Source of the DNA: Rhyzopertha dominica
Lineage: Eukaryota; Arthropoda; Insecta; Coleoptera; Bostrichidae
Length of the DNA stretch: 64,000 nucleotides
Assembly: GCA_025024175.1 (NCBI GenBank)
Contig: QCXZ01000137.1
Location: forward strand, 73,966,680-74,030,679
Direction of reading: 5' to 3'
The stretch's first letter is position 1, and every line of letters starts with the position of its first letter. A program made the position numbers and the translations under genes. This document shows positions 1-45,872 of this stretch, piece by piece. The notes under the pieces were generated by a model. That model was given only the letters and a program-made list of their open reading frames with translations, was not told the origin of the DNA and ran no database searches.

Positions 1-3000
1 ACCAAGTACAAACTATATATTGTGCATACTTTGTGCCACAAATCAAAGCCTTTTTATGTATATCACCACAAATTTCTAATGGGCTTCTACAAATAATTAG
101 AAGATCCATTATTTATTGCAGTAATACTTTCTCCATATTTCTTCAAAATTATTAATACTTCTGCATGTTTTCAGGGCTTCTTCAGTATGTCTATTCTTAT
201 TTTACCGTGAATGTACCTTATTTAGATAATCTGTTTACATTATTTTGTAAACGGGAAACACTCCTTTGTGCAACGGCCACTGCTTATTCTTGTTTGTCAT
301 CTATTATAATAATTCACTATGCAAATCCTGCTATGACTTTTCTATTTCTTGACTGAACATTCATTCTTTACACCATAATCTTTCTCAAAAACTCTTGTGA
401 TTCAGCAAAGGATAATGTAACATTAGAAGCGTGAGATAACACTATCTTCTAATTCGGAAATATGCTATGGTATTTTACAATTTATACCGTATTTCTAACT
501 GTGTGATTTTAAAAACGATCAAAATTATAGGCTTTAGTAATTTTATCTCAAACGAGCTCTAACAAGATACCTTTTTTCTAAAGGGTGCTCATTTATAGTT
601 ATTTCTATGGAGTTCATCTAGCTTAGCTTGTATATAGCATACCAATGAAGTGACTATTATATTAGTATTTTTGGTGTAAAGCAAGGAAATGATAAAATTA
701 AATTAATTTGTTGCACTCTTTTGGATCAAATCAACCTCAGTACGTGTTTTTTTTATGGAGGGGGACGTTCTGTTGGATCGAAATTTCTTGTTGGGTTCCG
801 CAAGAACCCGTAGTTGGTCCGTTGTTATATATTATTTATTCTTCGAAGCTTCCAGTACAGTCAGTATTATAAATATACTGATAATATGCAAATCAGTCTT
901 TTTCCCTGACAGAGGTCGATATTGTTAACGCTCTTGATAGACGGTTTTATTTGGAAAGCTAAAATATATCCCTAGTTGGAATCGATCGAATTTGGTTGTG
1001 AGGCTGGACGGGATTGTTTTATCTTGTACAAAATATGACTTGAAACTTAGATTTATATAAGGATTAAAATCTCAGATCCAATAACATTTTAGTAAGCTTT
1101 CGGAAATTTGAAAATATCATATTTAAATCGTCGCGTGTCAGATCCTAAATTTGAGTTTATTGTTATGTGCTACTACAACACTTTTAATTTTTAATTTTTC
1201 CGGCTATTTACGGTCAGTGTTTAAAACAAATTTTTTGTAAAAAGAAACAAAACATACAAAACTCGTGTCTTAGGTTTGTTTACGGTATTTGGCTCAATTT
1301 GATCAGTACGTACAACGAAGCAGGCTTATTGGCTGAACATAGATTTGCGTCGTTTTACGTGGTAGTCTTTTATCGTAGTTTTGCTCAAAATTTATAACTA
1401 TTTATACAACTACAACGGCCAGAATTAACGTGTATCTTATTAACATCCGGAGTTGTACCATAAAAGCGCTCTTATTCAAGAAAGTTTTAGTTCTCGGGTT
1501 CTGCTGGTGACAGTTGCTTGTCATTTCTACAGGACGTATTTGTTTACCCTTCCTTGCTTTATGATATCTTTGTTGTCTTATTTTTTGTTTATTATTTCTT
1601 TCTACTTTTATACAGTCCCTTCCGTCTTTTATTCGCTTGTTTGCTTGTTTGTTTAAATTTGTAGTTTGCCTTTGCACCATTAATATTTATGTTTCTGTAT
1701 ATTTCTTTCTTCAGAGCAGAGGTAACACTGAGTCGGATTTCCACTCACTCAGTAATGTAGTTTAAATACTTATCTTATATTTCTACAATTGTAGTAGATA
1801 GTAGAAATAAAATTATTGACCTGGACACGTCTTATACAGTAGTTTGAGGGGTCGTTTTGCCAGGTCTTTTTGTTACACAGGTAACGTCACCTACGGTGAC
1901 GCTACGAACTACGACATAAGTTGTTACGGTCCGTAAGTACAGAGTCCAATTGAATAAAATTACTTTGAATAAATAATTTTTGTCACATTTATTTCAACTA
2001 ACATAACTACCTTATCTACCATCTATTTAAGACGTATACTCTTACAGGTGTATCAAAGATATAGTAACCAGGATTTATATTATTATTAAAATTATAATAT
2101 AACAGCCATAAACTATTAGTTTCCTCTTTAGCTGAGTGCGCTGAGTATAATAATAGTTTTGACTAAGATGACTATATTATTCTCCAGTTCCTTCGCAGAT
2201 CTGCATGTCATTTCCTTTCCACAAAAGCGATTCGATACAAATATAGACCACCATATCTAATAAATTAAGCGTTTAATTAAATGAACCCGACGATGTTTAC
2301 GATTTGTCTGCGGAACGACGAAACCTTTGGCCTTAATTGCATTAGCACCAGCTGCAACGCACCTTCGCAGAAGCTCTCCTTCTTCATTTACTACACCAAT
2401 TTATCAAGCAGTCCGCATCATCAGCCGAACGATTTTGATTGAGCACCTTTTGTCAGGACGCCCAGTCTCTAGTGGAAATTAGCGTCGTGCTTTTAATTGC
2501 TTTAAAGGCAATTTCAGCCGGCATTGTCTTCGCTGAAATTGTCAGTCGGGAGTATCAACACGAGCCGGATAAAATGGTATTGTCAAGTTTGGATAAATTT
2601 AATTTGTAGGGATCTCCGAACGTCCATTACTATTAAAAGAAATGCGCCATTGTAGTTTAAAAACATTAATTAAAGTCTGAAAGGATGGAAAGGTAATGCC
2701 TGACAATTTATTATGCGCGGAGGTGTTCCGTAACAAACCATATTTCAGTACTATTTAAAATTCTGTAAGCCGGCGACAAGCTGATGTTTTCGGTGTCGAC
2801 GTTTTAAAACTGCCAACTGATCCGTCTTTATCTACGCGGAGTTAACTTTTCAATACGTTAAATGAGACAAGTCTCTCGATTTTCTCCATTTAATTCATAA
2901 TTTAATCAAAGGGAAGCGCGTTTTGAACTTTTCAACTGCAAGAAACGCTATACAATTTAAGTTCCAACACCTATTGTACAGTGACAAATGAATACAAGGT

Positions 3001-3420
3001 ATTAGCTTGAATTAAAATGGCGATTTCCATTAGGTCTATTATTTTATATAGTCTGTTTTGTTTCAGATTTTGCCGGGAAGACAAAAGCAAGGAACGGCCA
3101 CCAAGCAAGTGTAAGTTTAATTTATTACTTTCAGGCTTGTTCACTAGCTGATTTCGATCTGCTGTAAAGCTTTTTATACAAGCTTCAATCGACGACGTAC
3201 ATCTCTTTCCCGATGTGACATTTGACAGATCAATGAAGTGCAGACAAAAAATTTTGAAGGCATAAATGCCACACACTTCGGGAGCGGCCAATTTTTTTTT
3301 ATTTGTGAACAGCTGTAAGAACTTACATAAATATGCAGGTAACACCTTTAGGGTTATTGATCGTGGGTTTGGACAATGATGGGGATGACTTTCTTCAGAC
3401 AAGAATATTATAAATTTATT
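1..3420. other. Non-genic AT-rich sequence
   Basis: I see no convincing gene here. The short open frames (for example 165-356 and 1453-1656) are leucine/phenylalanine-rich translations of AT-rich DNA with no domain. The stretch 2280-2600 is less AT-rich and may be conserved non-coding DNA, but this cannot be tested from one sequence. Confidence 0.5.
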
Positions 3421-3573
3421 AAAATGCATATCTATGCTGTGCTGTCTACACCTCAACTAACTGCAGATAGTACTATTTCGCTGTCATTACAGCTCATCAG
3501 TGCAATTTAGGTCTAGTGTAGACAACACGGCATAGAACTGGTTTTGCTTATATACCAAAGCAATGGTATGATG
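3421..3573 (-). repeat. Solo copy of the hammerhead-ribozyme repeat (partial monomer)
   Basis: About 153 bp closely matches the ribozyme half of the 351-bp monomer seen at 38953-39825. The similarity starts at the AAAATGCAT motif and ends at CAATGGTATGATG. Flanking DNA on either side is unrelated to the rest of the monomer and no LINE sequence adjoins it. The strand is that on which the hammerhead core reads CTGATGAG...CGAAA. It also retains the TATATAAG motif found upstream of the ribozyme in other copies. Confidence 0.85.
3441..3529 (-). ncRNA. Hammerhead ribozyme, type I
   Basis: On the minus strand the order is: outer stem I strand TGTCTACAC, inner stem I TTGCA, core CTGATGA, stem II GCTGT-AATG-ACAGC, GAAA, stem III ATAG-TA-CTAT, C17, inner stem I TGCAG, outer stem I GTGTAGACA. 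All core nucleotides of the family (CUGANGA and GAAA) are present, and cleavage is predicted after C at + position 3466. The inner stem I has one G-U pair. The very short 2-nt stem III loop is typical of animal retrozyme and PLE hammerheads, which often need a dimer for full activity. Activity is inferred, not shown. Confidence 0.85.
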
Positions 3574-5348
3574 TTATGTTATGCTACAGCCATTAAAATA
3601 TATCAAGTATAATGCACTTCAACACCCGAAACACAGAAAGGGAAACATTTCCTAATCGTTACACGTGCTGAAAACTGTGATGATATCCCAGATAATGATT
3701 CTCAAGATAAGGATAATTTATAACGCATTTTAGCCAAAAAAAGTGCGTGATTTTTATGTACAAAAATCATTTCTTTCTTGAAATTATCGGAAATAATATC
3801 GCAAAAGAGTGAGAATAAATTGAAAATAATTCGACTGAGCTTCGAGAACTGTTGCCTATTGCCAAATGCTATCAGTTCGAGAATAAAAGTTCTGGAAGAA
3901 TATTTTCTGATTTATTCTCACTCTCGTGTGGTATTCGATAGATTATTTTTAACGTAACAAGCAGAAACACTGTTTCAATACTCCACTCTTTTTTAGTAGA
4001 GTATGATGACATACGTCAAGCCTACCTTAAATTATTCCAGCGAAAATTTGCTCTTGTGAAAATTCCCACTATAATAGTGTTTCGATTCGTTGAAAATGAC
4101 ATACCTAATTAACCGAAAATAAATTTTTTGGATTGGTTTTTAGAAACGTAAAATATATCTTACAAATACATCTTTTATAGCAACATCTAGTAGCGCTATA
4201 GCATAGTCATTTTCTCCAATAAGGCTCTAGACTGGACGAACGAATGAGCCTTATTTTTATCAGAAACTAAAGTGTATAGAAACTGTGATATTATTATAAA
4301 CAGTAAAAGATACCAACGTAAACGTAAGTGTTTACTTGCGCTTTAACATTTCATGGGAGATCAGGATATGTTTATGGAATAGCCTGTAGAAAAAACCACC
4401 ACTAAAATTTAGCCTTTTATATCTTACAAGGGGCCACAAAATAATAGGAAGTTTTGTTCAAATTTAACTTGGTTGTAGGTCCAGGGTGTCCCTCTAGCAC
4501 TAGCCATCCCTATAATGCAGCTTTCATACCATTTGCTGCTTTATGTAATGTATGTATTATTTATAAATACACTTTGTTCTTTGAATAAAAAGACATTTGC
4601 TTAATATTCTCTACCACATAAATAGCTGAACAACTGTAAGCTTGAAATGCTTAAGTTTAAAGCTTTATATAGCGGGTTTATTATATCTAGTGACGGTAAT
4701 ATTATTCCTCAAACTCCACTTTCGCTGTTCTGGGGAAAGATTCAGAACCTAATTGGTCAGGTCTATACAGCTCAGACGTAATACCATCGGCTTACGGCAG
4801 CAATAGAGGTGCCCGTTTCTGTATCAGTATCGTATCAGAATAGGAAAGCGGGTGTTGTCATAGTACGGCAAGCCTGTATAATAGAAACAGTGGAAAAATT
4901 TATTCAAAGTGCAGCCAAATTGCATTACACCGGAGAACTCTGCGCAAAGCAAGAGACACTGGAAGCACTATGAAATTCAAATGGTATCGTATTCCTTACA
5001 GCGCATTTGATCTTTTGCTCTCGTAACGATGTCGTTACAAATTTGCGTCGATGGAGACAAAAGCGTTACTGTTGATATAGAAACCACATAAGTAAAGCGC
5101 GATTTTTTCATTAAAATGATTTGACATATCGGTTATCGTGGCTGCAGATGTTGTGCTATGTTGTCCCAACTTAATAAAAAAAAAACGAATTATGAGTTTA
5201 TAATGATTTCCGCCAGGTATAATGAAACTGGCACAGCAACGTATAATACCTAATTATGTGCACCCTGATTTTACCTGAAAGAAGTAAAACGTACTCCGGG
5301 TTGGGATTCTTTAGCTAAGAATAATTGATGGAAGTGACAGATTACAGA
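3574..5348. other. Non-genic region with one imperfect hairpin
   Basis: No gene is supported. The only structure I see is an imperfect inverted repeat at about 3790-3950, whose arms share a 15-base core (AGAGTGAGAATAAAT at 3806-3820 and its complement at 3911-3925). It is listed separately. Confidence 0.5.
3790..3950. repeat. Imperfect inverted repeat / hairpin
   Basis: Arms of about 45-50 bp can pair, with a perfect 15-bp core, around a loop of roughly 70 bp. It could be a small MITE fold-back or a non-functional remnant. A miRNA precursor is possible, but the arms are longer and less regular than a typical insect pre-miRNA. Confidence 0.45.
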
Positions 5349-15003: not shown

Positions 15004-17085
15004 GTATTGGTCATTTACATAGAAAATATTGAACGTAATTATTGTTACATATGTATGACTATAAATGCACCAATTGGACTGACATTCAGGATGCGCCGAA
15101 AATCGGTCACTCCTGACCTTCCATGGCGTCTAGAAAGAACTAAATTATCCTTTATAATACATGAATTATATAAAACTAAACTAAATCTTAAAAAATGTAA
15201 CGAAGCAGCTGATACCAATAAGATTAAGAGAAAACATCGAGCAGTACATGAAAACCAAACTACAGCATAAAAACAGAAACCCTTAAGCGTGACAGAGCCA
15301 AACATGGCACCCCAAGACAAGGACATTAACTGTAGGTACTTCATCTCAGAAATATTTTTTATGTGGGATTTAAATGTGTTCAGGGACATCGCCTTAAGAT
15401 CCTTTTCTAACGTATTGCACAGTTTTACTGTATTGTACGAGAAACTTCGACTATAAAACACCGACTATGAACTGGCATACTAAATAAGCCTCTCTGTCTA
15501 ACATTGATGTTATGCACATCACTACGATGTGTTACTCTATAGTAAATATAAGGTGGCGACTTATACAGCATGATTTTGTGGAATAATATGAGGGAGTGGC
15601 AAACTCTTCTGTTGTTCATACTTAACCATTTGAGCTCCGACAATTTATGCGATACGTGCCCATATTTTCTAATGCAAAAGATAAAACGCATACAAGAATT
15701 TTGAACTCTCTGTATTCTACCCTTATCCCAACTAGTCAAGCAAGGATTGTACAAAACATCGCAGTAATTAAAATGAGACAGAACTAGTCCCTCACATAGC
15801 TCGACTTTAGTTTTTCTTGGTAAGATGTGGTGACTTGCCCATAAAAGTTTGATGTTACTGTATGCCGTTCTTATCATTTTTGAGACTTGCGTTGTAAAGC
15901 GCAAGGAAGAATCCAAAATGACAACCTAGTATCTTTACCTCATTTGATACATCCAATTTATTGCCATCAATTTTTATCAAAAGATTGTCGAACACCGACT
16001 TGACTAAATGATCGCACCCAAATATAATTAGGGAAGACTTAGCAGGATTTATACACAGTGAATGGTCTTTGCATGTAGCCACCAAAGCAGTAAGATCCCT
16101 ATTTATCAAATCCGTTCAGCCTTTGCATCACTTGGTGAAAACCTCAAATAAATCTGTGTATCATCGGCATATAGAAGTGATGTTTGCAGTGATGCACAGA
16201 AGACTCAAGGCCCGAACTATAGATATTGTACAGTAGAGGCCCCAGTATGCAACCCTGTGGGACTCCCGAGGTCAGCCGCACTTCACTAGACACCTCTTCG
16301 CCTATCTGAACTTTCTGATAGCGGTCTGTAAAGTAGTCCTTAAAAAATTTAACAGATATATCTGCCAGCCCTATATGGCGCAAAATTGCTAGTAAAATAT
16401 CGTGGTCCAAAGTATCGAAAGCTTTAGTGAAATCAATCGATACAAGAGCCATAACCTTGCCCTGGTCCACTGCTTGAATAATGTCATCAGAGATGGTAAG
16501 CAACGTTATCAAGCAACTGTAATTCTTTCGAACACCGGACTGAAATAAAGGTAAGATATCGTGCTGATCAATGTACTCATAGAACTGGTCCTTTACTATT
16601 CTTTCTATGATCTTTAAAAGCGCGGGCAGTATACTAATCGGTCTTAGATCTTTATAATTTACAAGGGAGGTAACTTTGGGAATTCCTATAGTTAGGAAAG
16701 ACCTCATGTTATATATATAAGGGCAACACATTTTAATGAATTGTATTGGCAAACCATCATCACCCACAGCATTAGAACGAATTTGATCAAGGCATTTAGA
16801 CACGTAATTGTCATCAACAAATTTAAAACAGAAGGAACGTTCAATGTCAATACCTGTTGAATCAGTATAAGACTGTAAAAGATTTTTCTTATTAACGTTA
16901 GCAGATATTGCAGAAGCATAATTAGCAGGCCATTGAAGAAGATTTTTTAGCACTGATCGCATTCGTGTAGTACTTGATGTTTCGCTGTTCATACTGCCAG
17001 CTTCTTCATAAGAGGTTTCTGACTCGTATCCTTGTATTCGGTTCGGCTTTATACAGGGTGTAGCACCTAGGAACTCTCGGACCAC
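15003..17085 (-). pseudogene. Non-LTR retrotransposon relic (RT plus C-terminal region), 5'-truncated
   Basis: The longest frame (16144-17085, 313 codons) carries RT blocks in order: IPKVTSLVNYKDLRPISILP, the QSGVRKNYSC block, SIDFTKAFDTLDH and SGVPQGCILGPLLYNIY. The YADD box is displaced by a frameshift at the end of this frame. The 84-codon frame at 15855-16109 and the 163-codon frame at 15425-15916 continue the polyprotein, with WDKGRIQRVQNSCMRFIF typical of the CR1/jockey C-terminus. The endonuclease domain is missing. The 3' end is the (TTA)n tail at 14963-15002. At least two frameshifts make it non-functional. Confidence 0.85.
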
Positions 17086-17269
17086 AGACAGTTTACGATA
17101 AATATATCAAATTAAAGTCTAAAAGCAAAATTGTACACAATTACTGTTGTCATGTTCCTACTGTAAGAATCTCTCTGTTCTATTGACTGGTCATTTTTTG
17201 AAAACTATAACGACATTGAATAAGCGTGTTTTCTATTTATAACACACTGAACAACACTTTTGCATTATA

Positions 17270-38128: not shown

Positions 38129-38952
38129 TAATAGTCGTCAACTTCTAGCTGTATCATCCAATACCAAATGATGACACGCATCCGATAAATCTAGTTGAGA
38201 AAAGTTTTTGCTGCCGCTAAGCTTAGCCAGCAGTTCCTCGATATAGAGAAGTGGATGGTCATCGGCTACAAAAATTGTATTTAAGCCAGTGGAATAATCC
38301 GCACACAGACTTATTTTTCTATTAGTCTTGCAAACCACTACAATAGGAGCCGCCCATTCCGATGAATCGGCTGAATTCGGCATACCATGTTCCACCAGAC
38401 GGTCTATCTTCTTATCAAGATCTTCTTGTAGAGAAAAAGCAGCAGGGCGGCGTTTGCAGTAAACCGGAGAAGCTTCAGATTTCAAACGTAAACAACCTTC
38501 CTCTTGGTGCAGGTTCCATTAATTTCGCTGAACAATAATTGTGAATATTTCTCGTCCAGCATCACTTCGTTGACACTGGAAATTTGAAGTTTACTTGACA
38601 CATTGTCACTGTCTTTATCTATGGTCACTGTGGAGGCAATGTCGTACTTATTAAACCGTAAATCCAAAACGATCTGCAACATGATTGAAGGAGCCCGCGT
38701 ATGCTTGTTCTTCAACGCAGAATCCGCTTCTAATCTTCCAAGAATTTTAAACTGTGAACCATTTACAGTGGTACAGGGAACGGCACTAAAAAGTAACGGC
38801 GGTTTTCCAAGCTTGCACCAATCGTGATTCCCAATAACGCAAATATCTGATCCACTATCGATCTGCATTCTTAGCAGCACACCATTCACTAATATGGTGA
38901 GCGAGACTATTGAACACAGAATTAACATTGATTTTGATGAGGGTTTATAGTG
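38129..38952 (-). pseudogene. Gypsy LTR retrotransposon pol, part 2 (protease and RT N-terminus)
   Basis: The frame 38482-38991 carries the retropepsin active site LRMQIDSGSDICVIG (D-S-G). The frame 38138-38485 continues with EWAAPIVVVCKTNRKISLCA, then AKLSGSKNFSQLDLSDACHH and LVLDDTA, the first RT blocks with the catalytic LDLSDA. The two frames overlap by 4 bp with a frame change. The last codons of the upper frame at its 5' end come from the LINE/hammerhead insertion, so the Gypsy part starts at 38952. Confidence 0.85.
38937..38952. repeat. Left 16-bp target-site duplication of the hammerhead-LINE insertion
   Basis: ATGAGGGTTTATAGTG is identical to 42882-42897 and is part of the Gypsy element on both sides. 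Confidence 0.9.
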
Positions 38953-39360
38953 AAAGTAAGAATTCAGGATGGCAATGCCATCTGTCAGCATTACACTGAC
39001 ATGATGACAAAGCCACCTAGCTGCCTTAACGGGAACTACTTCCTAAAGGAAGTGACCTGTAGCCTGACAAATTGGCATGCAACTGCATACTTCAATTTGA
39101 CAGCAGGCNCCCACGGCACTTTTTGCNGACGGCAAGAACCAACATACATTAAAATGCATGTCTATGCTGTGCTGTCTACACCTCAACCAACTGCAGATAG
39201 GACTATTTCGCTGTCATTACAGCTCATCAGTGCAGCTTAGGTCTAGTGTAGACAACACGGCATAGAACTGGTTTTGCTTATATACCAAAGCAATGGTATG
39301 ATGAAAGTAAGAATTTAGGATGGCAATGCCATCTGTCAGCATTACACTGACATGATGACA
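38953..39360 (-). repeat. Hammerhead repeat, inverted arm (one 351-bp monomer plus start of a second)
   Basis: The monomer runs from GAAAGTAAG (38952) to the next GAAAGTAAG at 39303, giving a 351-bp period. The second monomer stops after CATGATGACAA, where the sequence flips strand. It contains two N bases (39109 and 39127). It differs from the plus-strand arm by a few per cent, so it is not a perfect palindrome. Confidence 0.9.
39171..39259 (-). ncRNA. Hammerhead ribozyme, type I (inverted arm copy)
   Basis: Core CTGATGA, stem II GCTGT-AATG-ACAGC, GAAA, stem III ATAG-TC-CTAT, C17, inner stem I CTGCA/TGCAG, outer stem I TGTCTACAC/GTGTAGA.A region. All core positions are intact. Predicted cleavage lies after C at + position 39196. 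Confidence 0.85.
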
Positions 39361-39367
39361 ATGCCGT

Positions 39368-39453
39368 GTTGTCTACACTAGACCTAAGCTCCACTGATGA
39401 GCTGTAATGACAGCGAAATAGTACTATCTACAGTTGGTTGAGGTGTAGACAGC
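39368..39453 (+). ncRNA. Hammerhead ribozyme, type I (sense copy 1)
   Basis: Core, stem II (GCTGT/ACAGC) and stem III (ATAG-TA-CTAT) are intact. Inner stem I is weakened (CTCCA against TACAG, two mismatches), while outer stem I TGTCTACAC/GTGTAGACA is perfect. Confidence 0.8.
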
Positions 39454-39690
39454 ACAGCATAGACATGCATTTTAATGTATGTTGGTTCTTGCCGTCAGCA
39501 AAAAGTGCTGTGGGGGCCTGCTGTCAAATTGAAGTATGCAGTTGCATGCCAATTTGTCAGGTTACAGGTCACTTCCTTTAGGAAGTAGTTCCCGTTAAGG
39601 CAGCTAGGTGGCTTTGTCATCATGTCAGTGTAATGCTGACAGATGGCATTGCCATCCTAAATTCTTACTTTCATCATACCATTGCTTTGG

Positions 39691-39698
39691 TATATAAG
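39691..39698 (+). promoter_or_regulatory. TATA-like box inside the hammerhead repeat
   Basis: TATATAAG lies about 30 bp upstream of the first base of outer stem I (39720). The same motif is at the matching place in the solo copy at 3.5 kb. A Pol II start about 30 bp downstream would put the ribozyme at the very 5' end of the transcript. This is inferred only from spacing. Confidence 0.35.
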
Positions 39699-39717
39699 CA
39701 AAACCAGTTCTATGCCG

Positions 39718-39804
39718 TGTTGTCTACACTAGACCTAAGCTGCACTGATGAGCTGTAATGACAGCGAAATAGTACTATCTGCAGTTGGTTGAGGTGTAGA
39801 CAGC
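39718..39804 (+). ncRNA. Hammerhead ribozyme, type I (sense copy 2, best copy)
   Basis: All parts are perfect: inner stem I CTGCA/TGCAG, core CTGATGA, stem II GCTGT-AATG-ACAGC, GAAA, stem III ATAG-TA-CTAT, C17, outer stem I TGTCTACAC/GTGTAGACA, with internal stem I loops that could make the usual loop-loop contact with stem II. Predicted cleavage is between 39779 and 39780. Confidence 0.9.
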
Positions 39805-39825
39805 AAAGCATAGACATGCATTTTA

Positions 39826-42521
39826 CTCTATTATAACCAAAGTAATCTTAATAAAAATGATGGTATTCTAATATACTATAAAGCAGTTATTAATGTACAA
39901 ATTTCAGACGTACAATTAGCCCAAAGTAAAGTTACAGTTACAAAATTAAAATTTGAAAAATCTAATATTAAATACAATATATCAGTAGTGTACAGATCTC
40001 CATCAACAAATGTACATCAGTTTATTAACGATATTGATAATTACTTGCAAGTGAAAGAACAAGAACAAGTATTGCATGTTTTTATTGGTGACATAAATAT
40101 AAACTTACTTGAAGAAGATTACATTACAAACGAATATTGCTCAACTCTGGGTACCCATGGCTTTGCATGTGCCATAAAAAAATCCACACGAGTAACTAAC
40201 ACAACAGCTACCTGCTTAGATCATATTTTTATTAAAAACAAAACAAAAAACAAGAATCTTAAATTGGAAACTCTTATAATCAACAGTAATATAACTGATC
40301 ACTACCCAATAATGCTTAATTTGTCAATAGCAAAAGATGAAATAAGTAATATCAATGGAAAGAATAAGAATAACTCATTCACAAAGACAGTAACAAACTA
40401 TGAGAAACTAATTGATTTAATAAAACAGAAAACGTGGCAAGAAGTTTTGAATGAAACAGATCCACAAGTAGCAACTGATGTATTCCTAAATAATTTAAGT
40501 CAAGTGATGAAATCAGCAAACAAAACCTTAATAAGACATAAAAACTATAAAAAAATAAAAGCATGGATCACAACAGGCATCATAACGTCAATAAAGAACC
40601 GAGAAAAAATGAAAAAAAAACTTATAAAAAACCCACACAACCCCGAAAAAGAAAAAGAATATAAAAATTACAGAAATCAATTAAGGACTCTAATTAATAC
40701 AGTTAAAAATACCTATTATAAAGAAGCATTCGATAACAACAGAAAAAACATTAAACATACTTATAAACTAATTAATGAAGCAACTAATGGAAACCAGAAT
40801 AGTAACACTCACGAAAAAATAACTATAATTGACGACAATAACGACCCAATTACAGACGAAAAAAAACTAGCAACATTCTGCAATGAATATTATATCAACA
40901 TTGGTGCAAAAATGGCAGAAAAAATTAAGAATAACACAAATCATATTAACTTCAACTCTTTAACCAATAACTCAATATTTCTAACTCCAGTAACTACAAA
41001 CGAGTTAATAAAACATATCCATAGCTTGAAGAACAAGTGCAGTGCAGGCATTGACCAGATTCAATCAAAAACAATTAAAATAATTCATACACATATTATT
41101 GCACCTCTGAAACACATAATAAATTTAACCTTCACTAAGGGTATAATTCCAGTACAATTTAAACAATCTGTTGTTACACCAATTCACAAATCTGGAAATA
41201 AAAATGACATCAGTAACTACAGACCAATAAGTGTGATCACCAATTTTGCAAAAGTTTTTGAAAAATGTCTAAAAATTCGACTGGAAAGTTTTTTTAAAGT
41301 TAACAAGATACTATCAGAGAATCAATTTGGATTTACGGAGGGAAGAAGCACAAATGAGGCCATACAGAAATTAACAGAAGAAATTACAAATCATCTAGAC
41401 ACTGGACAAAAAAGTATCGCAGTCTTCCTAGACTTAGCTAAAGCATTTGATACTGTGTCGCATACCACTCTATTGAAAATACTATATAAATACGGAATCA
41501 GGGGCCCTGCACATAATATTATAAAAAATTACTTAGAAAACAGAGAACAGTATGTAAAGATAAATAAAACAATAAGTGATCCATCAACAGTAAGAGTGGG
41601 AGTACCACAAGGAACAGTCCTAGGGCCAATACTTTTCAATATATACATAAATGAATTAACAAACTTACCACTGAATGGAAGAATAATATCGTATGCTGAT
41701 GACACTGCAATTGTCTTCCACGGAAAAAGCTGGAGTGAAGTTAAGGAAATAACAGAAACCGAACTCAACAAAATCCAACAAATATTAGACGAACTCAAAT
41801 TAACCTTAAATGTAAAAAAACTACCTACTTAGCATTTTCTATTTCCGAAATAAACAGACCGTGCTTTAAAGCTCTGAAAATAGGCAGTAGCACAGACCAT
41901 ATTAAGGAAGCTATAACTACAAAATACTTGGGCGTAACAATAGACAATAAACTGAAGTGGATTCAGCATGCCTCAAATATCTGTAGCAAAATAAGAAATC
42001 TTATTCACAAATTCTACCTACTCAGGCACTATTTAAATCGAAACGTGTTGATGATAGTTTACAAGAGCTTAGTAGAGTCGCTGATCAGTTATGGTATTAT
42101 AGCCTGGGGAGGATTGAATAACAGTGCTATGCGACAGCTAGCAGTGACACAGAATAAAATAATTAAGGTCATACTTAAAAAAAATAGACGTTATCCAACA
42201 AAGAAACTGTATAGCGAAAAAATTAGGGACGTAAGGACTATCTACATTTGTAGCATATGCTCATATATACACAAACAGCAACATAAATATAACACCATAA
42301 AACATAAGTACAATACAAGAGATAAAAATAAAAATAATTTGATCATTCCGCAGAGCAACCGCAACATAAAGCTAAAGTCAATAACATACTTAGGACCAAA
42401 ATTTTATAACATGATTCCCACCCAAATAAGACAAATAAATGATCAGAAAAAGTTTTCTAAAATTATGAATGACTTTGTAACTAGAAATAATGCCAACTTC
42501 AAAGAAATATTTAACACTTGA
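39826..42521 (+). pseudogene. Non-LTR retrotransposon polyprotein (endonuclease C-terminus plus reverse transcriptase), one frameshift
   Basis: The reading frame is open from the fusion point at 39826 (NKNDGILIYYK...) through 39988 to 41832, and resumes at 41928-42521. N-terminal part: APE endonuclease end with VVYRSPSTN, FIGDININL, TCLDHIFIK and the final ITDHYPI. RT blocks follow: YRPISVITNFAKVFEKCLKI, NQFGFTEGRSTNEAI, FLDLAKAFDTVSH, VGVPQGTVLGPILFNIYINE and SYADDTAIVF (catalytic ADD). The C-terminal region has TKYLGVTIDNKLKWIQH. A missing A in the A-run at 41814-41820 is the only break I find; with it counted, about 900 codons are present. The family is of the jockey/R1/I group of LINEs; it is 5'-truncated and recent. 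Confidence 0.9.
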
Positions 42522-42881
42522 TCCATCCGTGAACCATTTAATATAATTATATAAACATTGTGCAATACAGATAGGTACAAATATACAAGTAGCTCCTCTT
42601 CTTCACTTTTGTTTTTGTCATTAAAGTATATGCTGGTATGTAAGTAGTAGTATAATTAGCATTTAGTATTTAGATAACTTAGACTAAGTAAAAATCAATA
42701 GAAAATAAAACTTATAATTTAACATGTCATGTCTTGCACTGTACGCACAGGTAACAGTACCTAGGTGCAGTGCAACACATTGCATACATCTTTTATAGGT
42801 ATATAACTTTAATTTAATGTACTTTGTATTATTTTTGATGATTGAAAATAATAAAATTGAATTGAATTGAATTGAAATTGA
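42522..42881 (+). other. LINE 3' UTR and (TTGAA)n tail
   Basis: About 335 bp of AT-rich 3' UTR ends in four to five TTGAA units (42856-42881), the tail immediately before the right target-site duplication. Confidence 0.8.
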
Positions 42882-42897
42882 ATGAGGGTTTATAGTG
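42882..42897. repeat. Right 16-bp target-site duplication
   Basis: Identical to 38937-38952. The Gypsy frame resumes here. Confidence 0.9.
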
Positions 42898-45600: not shown

Positions 45601-45734
45601 AATGATAAATTTTAAAGTCAACAATTTTTTTAACACTTTAACCACGACAGATATCTAGCAACTACTTAATCTAATTTAAAAGTGAATCGGCAAAAACTGC
45701 AAAGTATGCAAATCGTGTAAATGATGTGAGATTT

Positions 45735-45872
45735 AAATGCCTTTCTATGCTATGCTGTCTGCTCCGCAACCAACTACTGATAGATCTATTTCGCCATCAA
45801 TGTAGCTCATCAGGGTAGTTTAGGTCTAGTGCAGGCAGCATGGCATATAACTGGTTTTGCTGTATACCAAAG
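45735..45872 (-). repeat. Hammerhead repeat fragment fused to a LINE
   Basis: About 138 bp covers the ribozyme half of the 351-bp monomer, more diverged than the other copies. Similarity ends at ATACCAAAG (45872), and LINE coding sequence starts right after it. Confidence 0.8.
45754..45838 (-). ncRNA. Hammerhead ribozyme, type I (diverged copy)
   Basis: Minus strand: CTGATGA core, stem II GCTA...TGGC (with a G-U pair), GAAA, stem III ATAG-AT-CTAT, C17. Inner stem I is CTAC/GTAG against CTGC/GCAG in other copies, and outer stem I has CTGC/GCAG against CTAC/GTAG, so pairs changed on both sides. The base pair next to the cleavage site is lost (A-C). Confidence 0.8.

Follow-up and report, generated by a model that had tools for sequence, protein, structure and literature searches.

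The non-long terminal repeat (non-LTR) retrozymes of metazoans are multicopy tandem repeats of approximately 350 bp that carry a type I-like hammerhead ribozyme, have no coding capacity and show target-site duplications (TSDs) that exceed the 4 bp known from plant retrozymes, at least in the sections of the published account drawn on here (Cervera and de la Pena 2020, PMC7229834). Published work regards Penelope-like elements (PLEs) as strong candidates for the entry of retrozymes into animal genomes, on the grounds that PLEs and retrozymes share hammerheads and a tandem arrangement and are found together (sections of PMC7229834 and PMC7761336). Here we describe a composite insertion in a 64,000-nucleotide stretch of the genome of the beetle Rhyzopertha dominica (contig QCXZ01000137.1, positions 73,966,680 to 74,030,679; 'the window'). 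It is a young, 5'-truncated long interspersed nuclear element (LINE) lying directly beside a hammerhead (HH) element of a very large family, with one TSD pair around both. In our judgement it probably arose in two steps, a PLE-type insertion of the HH element followed by insertion of the LINE at the HH 3' edge.

Among PLEs, some Penelope insertions in a rotifer carry an inverted, shorter 5' copy and TSDs of 9-10 bp, and others have no TSD or direct copies only (PMC3846280, passages on Penelope). The sections cited on a purified Anolis PLE (PMC11167929) report that the enzyme extends both target strands and begins copying at fixed internal sites past the hammerhead cut. Chimeric LINE insertions (U6/LINE-1 and others, PMC13174262, in part) resemble the present locus in having sense RNA-derived sequence upstream of a 5'-truncated LINE, all within one TSD pair; the Magnaporthe (M.) grisea chimeras belong to the same class (PMC2104539, in part). 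Literature listings on hammerheads, retrozymes, LINEs and template switching name no hammerhead-LINE chimera in the entries they display, and in the PMC literature searched there was no match for a hammerhead ribozyme combined with twin priming.

Anatomy of the composite insertion

The insertion spans 38937-42897 and consists, in order, of a TSD copy, an inverted HH arm, direct HH repeats, a CT filler, the LINE and the second TSD copy. The left copy of the TSD (ATGAGGGTTTATAGTG, 38937-38952), the final two bases of which already belong to the stretch of HH similarity, and the right copy (42882-42897) are identical at 16/16 positions. The inverted arm (minus strand) is in two pieces. The first (38951-39144) starts at approximately position 194 of the HH unit (q194), where stand-alone HH elements usually have their left end, and the second (39145-39365) includes an intact hammerhead core (39206-39230). 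On the plus strand there follow a partial direct repeat (39361-39479; core 39394-39418), in which stem I is weakened by private changes, and a further direct repeat (39480-39825; core 39745-39769) which ends at the fixed 3' end of the family, CATTTTA (q346). The direct-repeat spacing is 351 bp and the inverted arms are 97-98% complementary. The two filler bases (39826-39827, plus strand) match neither HH nor five other LINE copies. The LINE itself (39828-42881, plus strand) comprises the end of the endonuclease region, the reverse transcriptase (RT) and a 3' tail of ATTGA-type repeats (42857-42881); its reading frame is broken near 41832. Removing 39826-42881 restores CATTTTA immediately followed by ATGAGGGTTTATAGTG, an ordinary HH 3' junction.

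The original prediction, made from the letters of the window, had placed a single TSD pair around inverted and tandem 351-bp HH repeats and a 5'-truncated LINE, and this was confirmed. It had also started the LINE frame at the exact base where HH similarity stops; the stop-to-stop frame in fact starts at 39814, inside the HH part, and LINE sequence begins at 39828. An assembly artefact at the palindrome or at the junction might be suspected since one HH arm contains two Ns (39109 and 39127). However, the 24 Ns of the window are scattered throughout it and most of the other HH sites fetched also have inverted arms, and for these reasons a local artefact is very unlikely; the exactness of the TSD copies also speaks against it.

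The core (CTGATGAG..CGAAA) is intact in all three positions given above, and the hammerhead consensus predicts self-cleavage between 39779 and 39780, at approximately q300. Rfam at gathering scores gives no match anywhere in the window. With a relaxed threshold, Hammerhead_HH9 is reported at 26.6, 26.1 and 16.9 bits; the best of these has an E of 0.0016, and all fall short of the cut-off of 52 bits, so the hammerhead label depends mainly on the core motif and stems. The RF00008 profile found no match in the genome, but controls were equally silent and the search is uninformative.

The HH family

The 479-Mb assembly (138 contigs) contains 4,818 matches to the 28-base HH core when up to 2 mismatches are allowed, and 0 to the reversed control. 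Grouping the first 100 core matches listed, which are all exact and come from the first 19 Mb of a single contig, gives 81 sites, and extrapolation from these suggests about 3,900 HH sites genome-wide. The elements seen are arrays of a 351-352-bp unit, and no known protein domain was found in them. Metazoan non-LTR retrozymes are characterised by a hammerhead within tandemly repeated units of 150-450 bp, by many mobile copies with TSDs longer than 4 bp, and by RNAs in self-cleaved linear and circular form. The first two sets of properties are seen in the HH family: a 351-bp spacing with three intact cores (scored by Rfam below its cut-off), and 4,818 cores with TSDs of 11-15 bp at 15/19 sites.

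Element ends were determined from a DNA search in which 40 of 2,208 candidates were scored, giving at least 131 matches grouped into at least 38 sites. Twenty sites, including that in the window, were fully fetched; for 10 of the 18 others only the ends were obtained. The 3' end is CATTTTA in 28 of the 29 other sites examined (L056 is irregular), and it is followed by AT in 20/28 and by A in 26/28. The inverted arm starts at q186-198 in 15 of the 19 fully fetched other sites (L035, L040, L043 and L047 deviate), and it is these 15 that have a TSD of 11-15 bp, compared with at most 9 bp shared by mismatched left and right flanks (380 pairs from the 20 sites). The window element, with q194, q346 and a 16-bp TSD, can be set beside these values. 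In the second set, with ends only, 4/10 sites show a TSD of 13-15 bp, but the mismatched control reached 10, 16 and 17 bp among 90 pairs, where left pieces can hold HH sequence; our statement on HH TSDs is therefore confined to the first set. Palindromes with two preferred end points make up most of the fully fetched insertions, a layout that the sections of PMC7229834 drawn on here do not describe for metazoan retrozymes.

Two further HH pieces lie in the window, both on the minus strand. A short element (3418-3573; 97% identical to the unit) retains an intact core (3476-3500) and extends only from approximately q194 to q348, exactly the interval between the two preferred end points. An older piece (45731-45872; 82% to the unit) has a recognisable core (45789-45813) and the same 3' base.

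PLE-like architecture

The HH elements display several PLE-type features: a shorter inverted copy on the 5' side, 3' ends pointing outward and preferred end points (15/19 sites). They also resemble PLEs, as these appear in the sections cited above, in the short TSDs of some copies, in a hammerhead near the region where reverse transcription starts and in what would be a fixed internal RT start. Unlike PLEs, they are noncoding, and the likeness is one of layout, not of base-by-base comparison with the PLEs of this genome.

A genome search for the GIY-YIG endonuclease gave at least 144 matches (150 of 2,080 candidates scored), whose domain and layout suggest that they are PLEs. Close neighbours among the matches listed form the outward-facing (-)(+) pairs also seen for HH in 20/21 cases and are (-)(-) in 1, with 0 (+)(-). 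Neighbouring HH cores among the first 100 listed are 11 (-)(+), 4 (-)(-), 4 (+)(+) and 2 (+)(-). In the HH elements seen, no PLE-type RT with GIY-YIG endonuclease was found; GIY-YIG sequences occur elsewhere in the genome, so the HH element is at most a non-autonomous passenger, whose RNA is probably mobilised by PLE enzymes. The route by which retrozymes enter a genome is directly testable in this species, where the ends, TSDs and inverted layout of thousands of HH copies can be compared with those of PLE copies in the same genome.

The LINE and its other copies

The LINE frame matches RVT_1 (E 3.4e-35), and its relatives of approximately 980 amino acids carry RVT_1 and in many cases also the PF03372 endonuclease. 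Copy number is low: 7 matches for 39826-40500, 12 alignment rows for 40480-41520 and 31 for 41500-42860, the last including 21 places, the window among them, that are at least 95% identical.

Five other copies cross 39828 and all five run on into LINE sequence; a sixth, partial match begins downstream of the junction point. The HH part is therefore not a fixed 5' end of the LINE, a possibility that we rejected as all 5 spanning copies differ there from the window, and the original prediction was right to treat the junction, which was found once, as something else. The same copies bear on the idea of an inherited chimera, in which an earlier HH insertion into a LINE elsewhere would have given rise to a fused transcript whose copy now occupies this site. 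Although this would account for a junction at q346, where HH insertions end, HH is absent from the junction point in 5/5 of them and we regard the idea as very improbable. Nor was HH found upstream of any of the 13 other copies read (of 20 others; approximately 330 bases in 5 and approximately 40 in 8). The upstream piece of one of these, L076, shares one 9-mer and no 10-mer with HH, which we take as chance. Conversely, no LINE follows the HH end at any of 29 other sites (BLAST against the LINE for 19 of them, inspection of short flanks for 10).

The LINE family leaves no or short duplications. No TSD of 10 bp or more was present in any of the 8 other copies with both ends read, in which the longest common strings were 5-9 bp. 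Two copies have a TSD flush at both ends, of 6 and 9 bp, while the mismatched control reached 8. A truncated copy (L076 / L083, C64:21531966-21533206) has ATTTTTAAA on both sides, with the left copy separated from the 5' end; this is possibly a TSD plus filler.

Private changes and relative age

The HH part of the window has 7 singleton private changes in 882 nucleotides, the second highest value of the 20 sites. Comparison of the LINE with its nearest copies by bit score indicates approximately 2, 1 and 1 mismatches, giving an upper bound of about 4 in 3,055 bp. The difference between 7/882 and at most about 4/3,055 is significant (Fisher p = 0.004), although HH template units that had already diverged would give the same gap. 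At other HH sites private changes range from 0 to 0.90%, and the low values (0/1,733 in L033, 1/2,231 in L036, 0/779 in L039 and 0/848 in L045) show that HH copying can be faithful.

Both arms probably derive from one HH template since a marker, 261G, is common to the two (3/3 repeats of the window that cover the position) and is absent elsewhere (0/54 repeats). The median divergence of HH repeats is 0.5% within a site (112 pairs) and 1.7% between sites (2,280 pairs), and the likeness within sites would be compatible with copying of one repeated template.

One insertion or two

We propose that an HH element of this large retrozyme-like family was inserted first, by a PLE-type reaction in which each end of a staggered cut would have served as a primer on the same HH RNA, with copying started at two preferred internal sites (q346 for one strand, approximately q195 for the other). 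The product would be a palindrome whose 3' ends point outward, together with a 16-bp duplication. At a later time, a young LINE would have landed, without a TSD of its own, exactly between the HH 3' end and the right duplication, its 5' end being joined through two filler bases. We infer the order of events, the involvement of a PLE enzyme and the use of the priming sites as RT starts. The account builds on the anatomy of the locus, the fixed ends, the existence of a stand-alone family, the TSD habit of the LINE in 8 copies and the difference in private changes. We favour it because it explains both HH ends, the length of the TSD and the AT with which it starts, the missing TSD of the LINE and the age gap. 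On this reading, the locus illustrates how a TSD-less LINE nested at the edge of another element can mimic a chimera formed in one step.

Several observations weigh against two steps. A single TSD pair around both parts is a classic sign of one event. Landing at the boundary by chance is expected approximately 3e-4 times per genome, before any target preference (assuming 20 LINE copies, 3,000-4,000 HH sites and 2 allowed positions). The 16-bp TSD exceeds the longest other HH TSD (15) by 1 bp, and the age gap could stem from a multimeric HH template with units already diverged. In addition, the HH sites are best matches to a query ending near q346 and are biased toward elements that reach it; the two smaller HH pieces of the window (3418-3573 and 45731-45872), which were not selected in this way, also end there.

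A joint event, in one of two forms, is the less likely alternative. The original prediction had argued for a shared insertion event, and the exact TSD pair enclosing both parts agrees with it, but the ends, the TSD and the private changes fit two steps better. In the form that follows its suggestion of LINE template switching, the LINE RT, on reaching the 5' end of its own RNA, jumps to the 3' end of an HH RNA, and twin priming gives the inverted arm. The uniqueness of the junction is in its favour, as are the two filler bases, which fit non-templated addition before a jump (known for the R2 enzyme in the part of PMC8857657 cited), and documented LINE-1 chimeras with other RNAs (PMC13174262, in part). 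Enclosure of both parts by one TSD pair is also what a template-switch chimera should show, yet a TSD of this length is atypical of this LINE (0/8 reach 10 bp), and the model leaves it unexplained. The HH RNA would moreover have to end at q346 and not at the self-cleavage site (approximately q300), and the jump alone accounts neither for the canonical q194 end nor for the age gap between HH and LINE. Both q346 and q194 are ends of stand-alone HH elements, and the TSD and its AT start are HH-like, not LINE-like. The locus differs from known LINE chimeras in these same respects, both HH ends being the element's own transposition ends and the TSD resembling that of HH. It differs also in that HH seems to be the older of the two partners and that this was the only case found. 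We consider that the HH RNA is unlikely to have been brought in by such a switch.

The other form is somewhat less improbable, though still doubtful. Here, the 3' end of the LINE cDNA, replacing target DNA, would prime copying of HH RNA at the PLE-type start q346, and the opposite target end would prime at approximately q194, so that a LINE insertion that had stalled at an HH/PLE-type break is sealed by the HH copy. No coincidence is then needed for the q346 junction, 46 nucleotides past the predicted cut, or for the q194 end. The HH-like TSD, the AT start and the single TSD pair are also accounted for, and the Anolis PLE is reported to copy from an internal start and to extend both target strands (PMC11167929, sections cited). 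Against this, two machineries are required at one site, a template divergence specific to HH has to be assumed since the private changes of HH exceed those of the LINE, and neither the 13 other LINE copies read upstream nor the 29 other HH sites provided another example. If it were true, a single integration intermediate would have been used by both LINE and PLE-type machineries, and breaks that other retroelements leave behind could be patched with retrozyme RNA. The suggestion that HH RNAs enter the genome without relying on PLEs finds no support, as the HH family has a PLE-like architecture and a joint event would itself probably use HH's own start site.

Two further schemes are disfavoured. 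If HH had inserted second, into the LINE, an HH duplication around the HH part would be expected; strings shared there reach no more than 7 bp and lie away from the ends, and HH seems to be the older part. Nor would ligation between LINE RNA and a self-cleaved HH RNA place the junction 46 nucleotides past the predicted cut. The weights given to all these explanations are our judgement: two steps are probable, the two joint forms taken together distinctly less so, and the remainder together improbable.

Other features of the window

A second RT frame is present at 15425-17106 (minus strand; RVT_1, E 1.8e-19), followed by a frame with no Pfam match. The composite insertion itself interrupts a frame at 38482-38943 (minus strand) that has no Pfam match and contains a DSGSD motif, which we take to be of the type found in the proteases of LTR retroelements.

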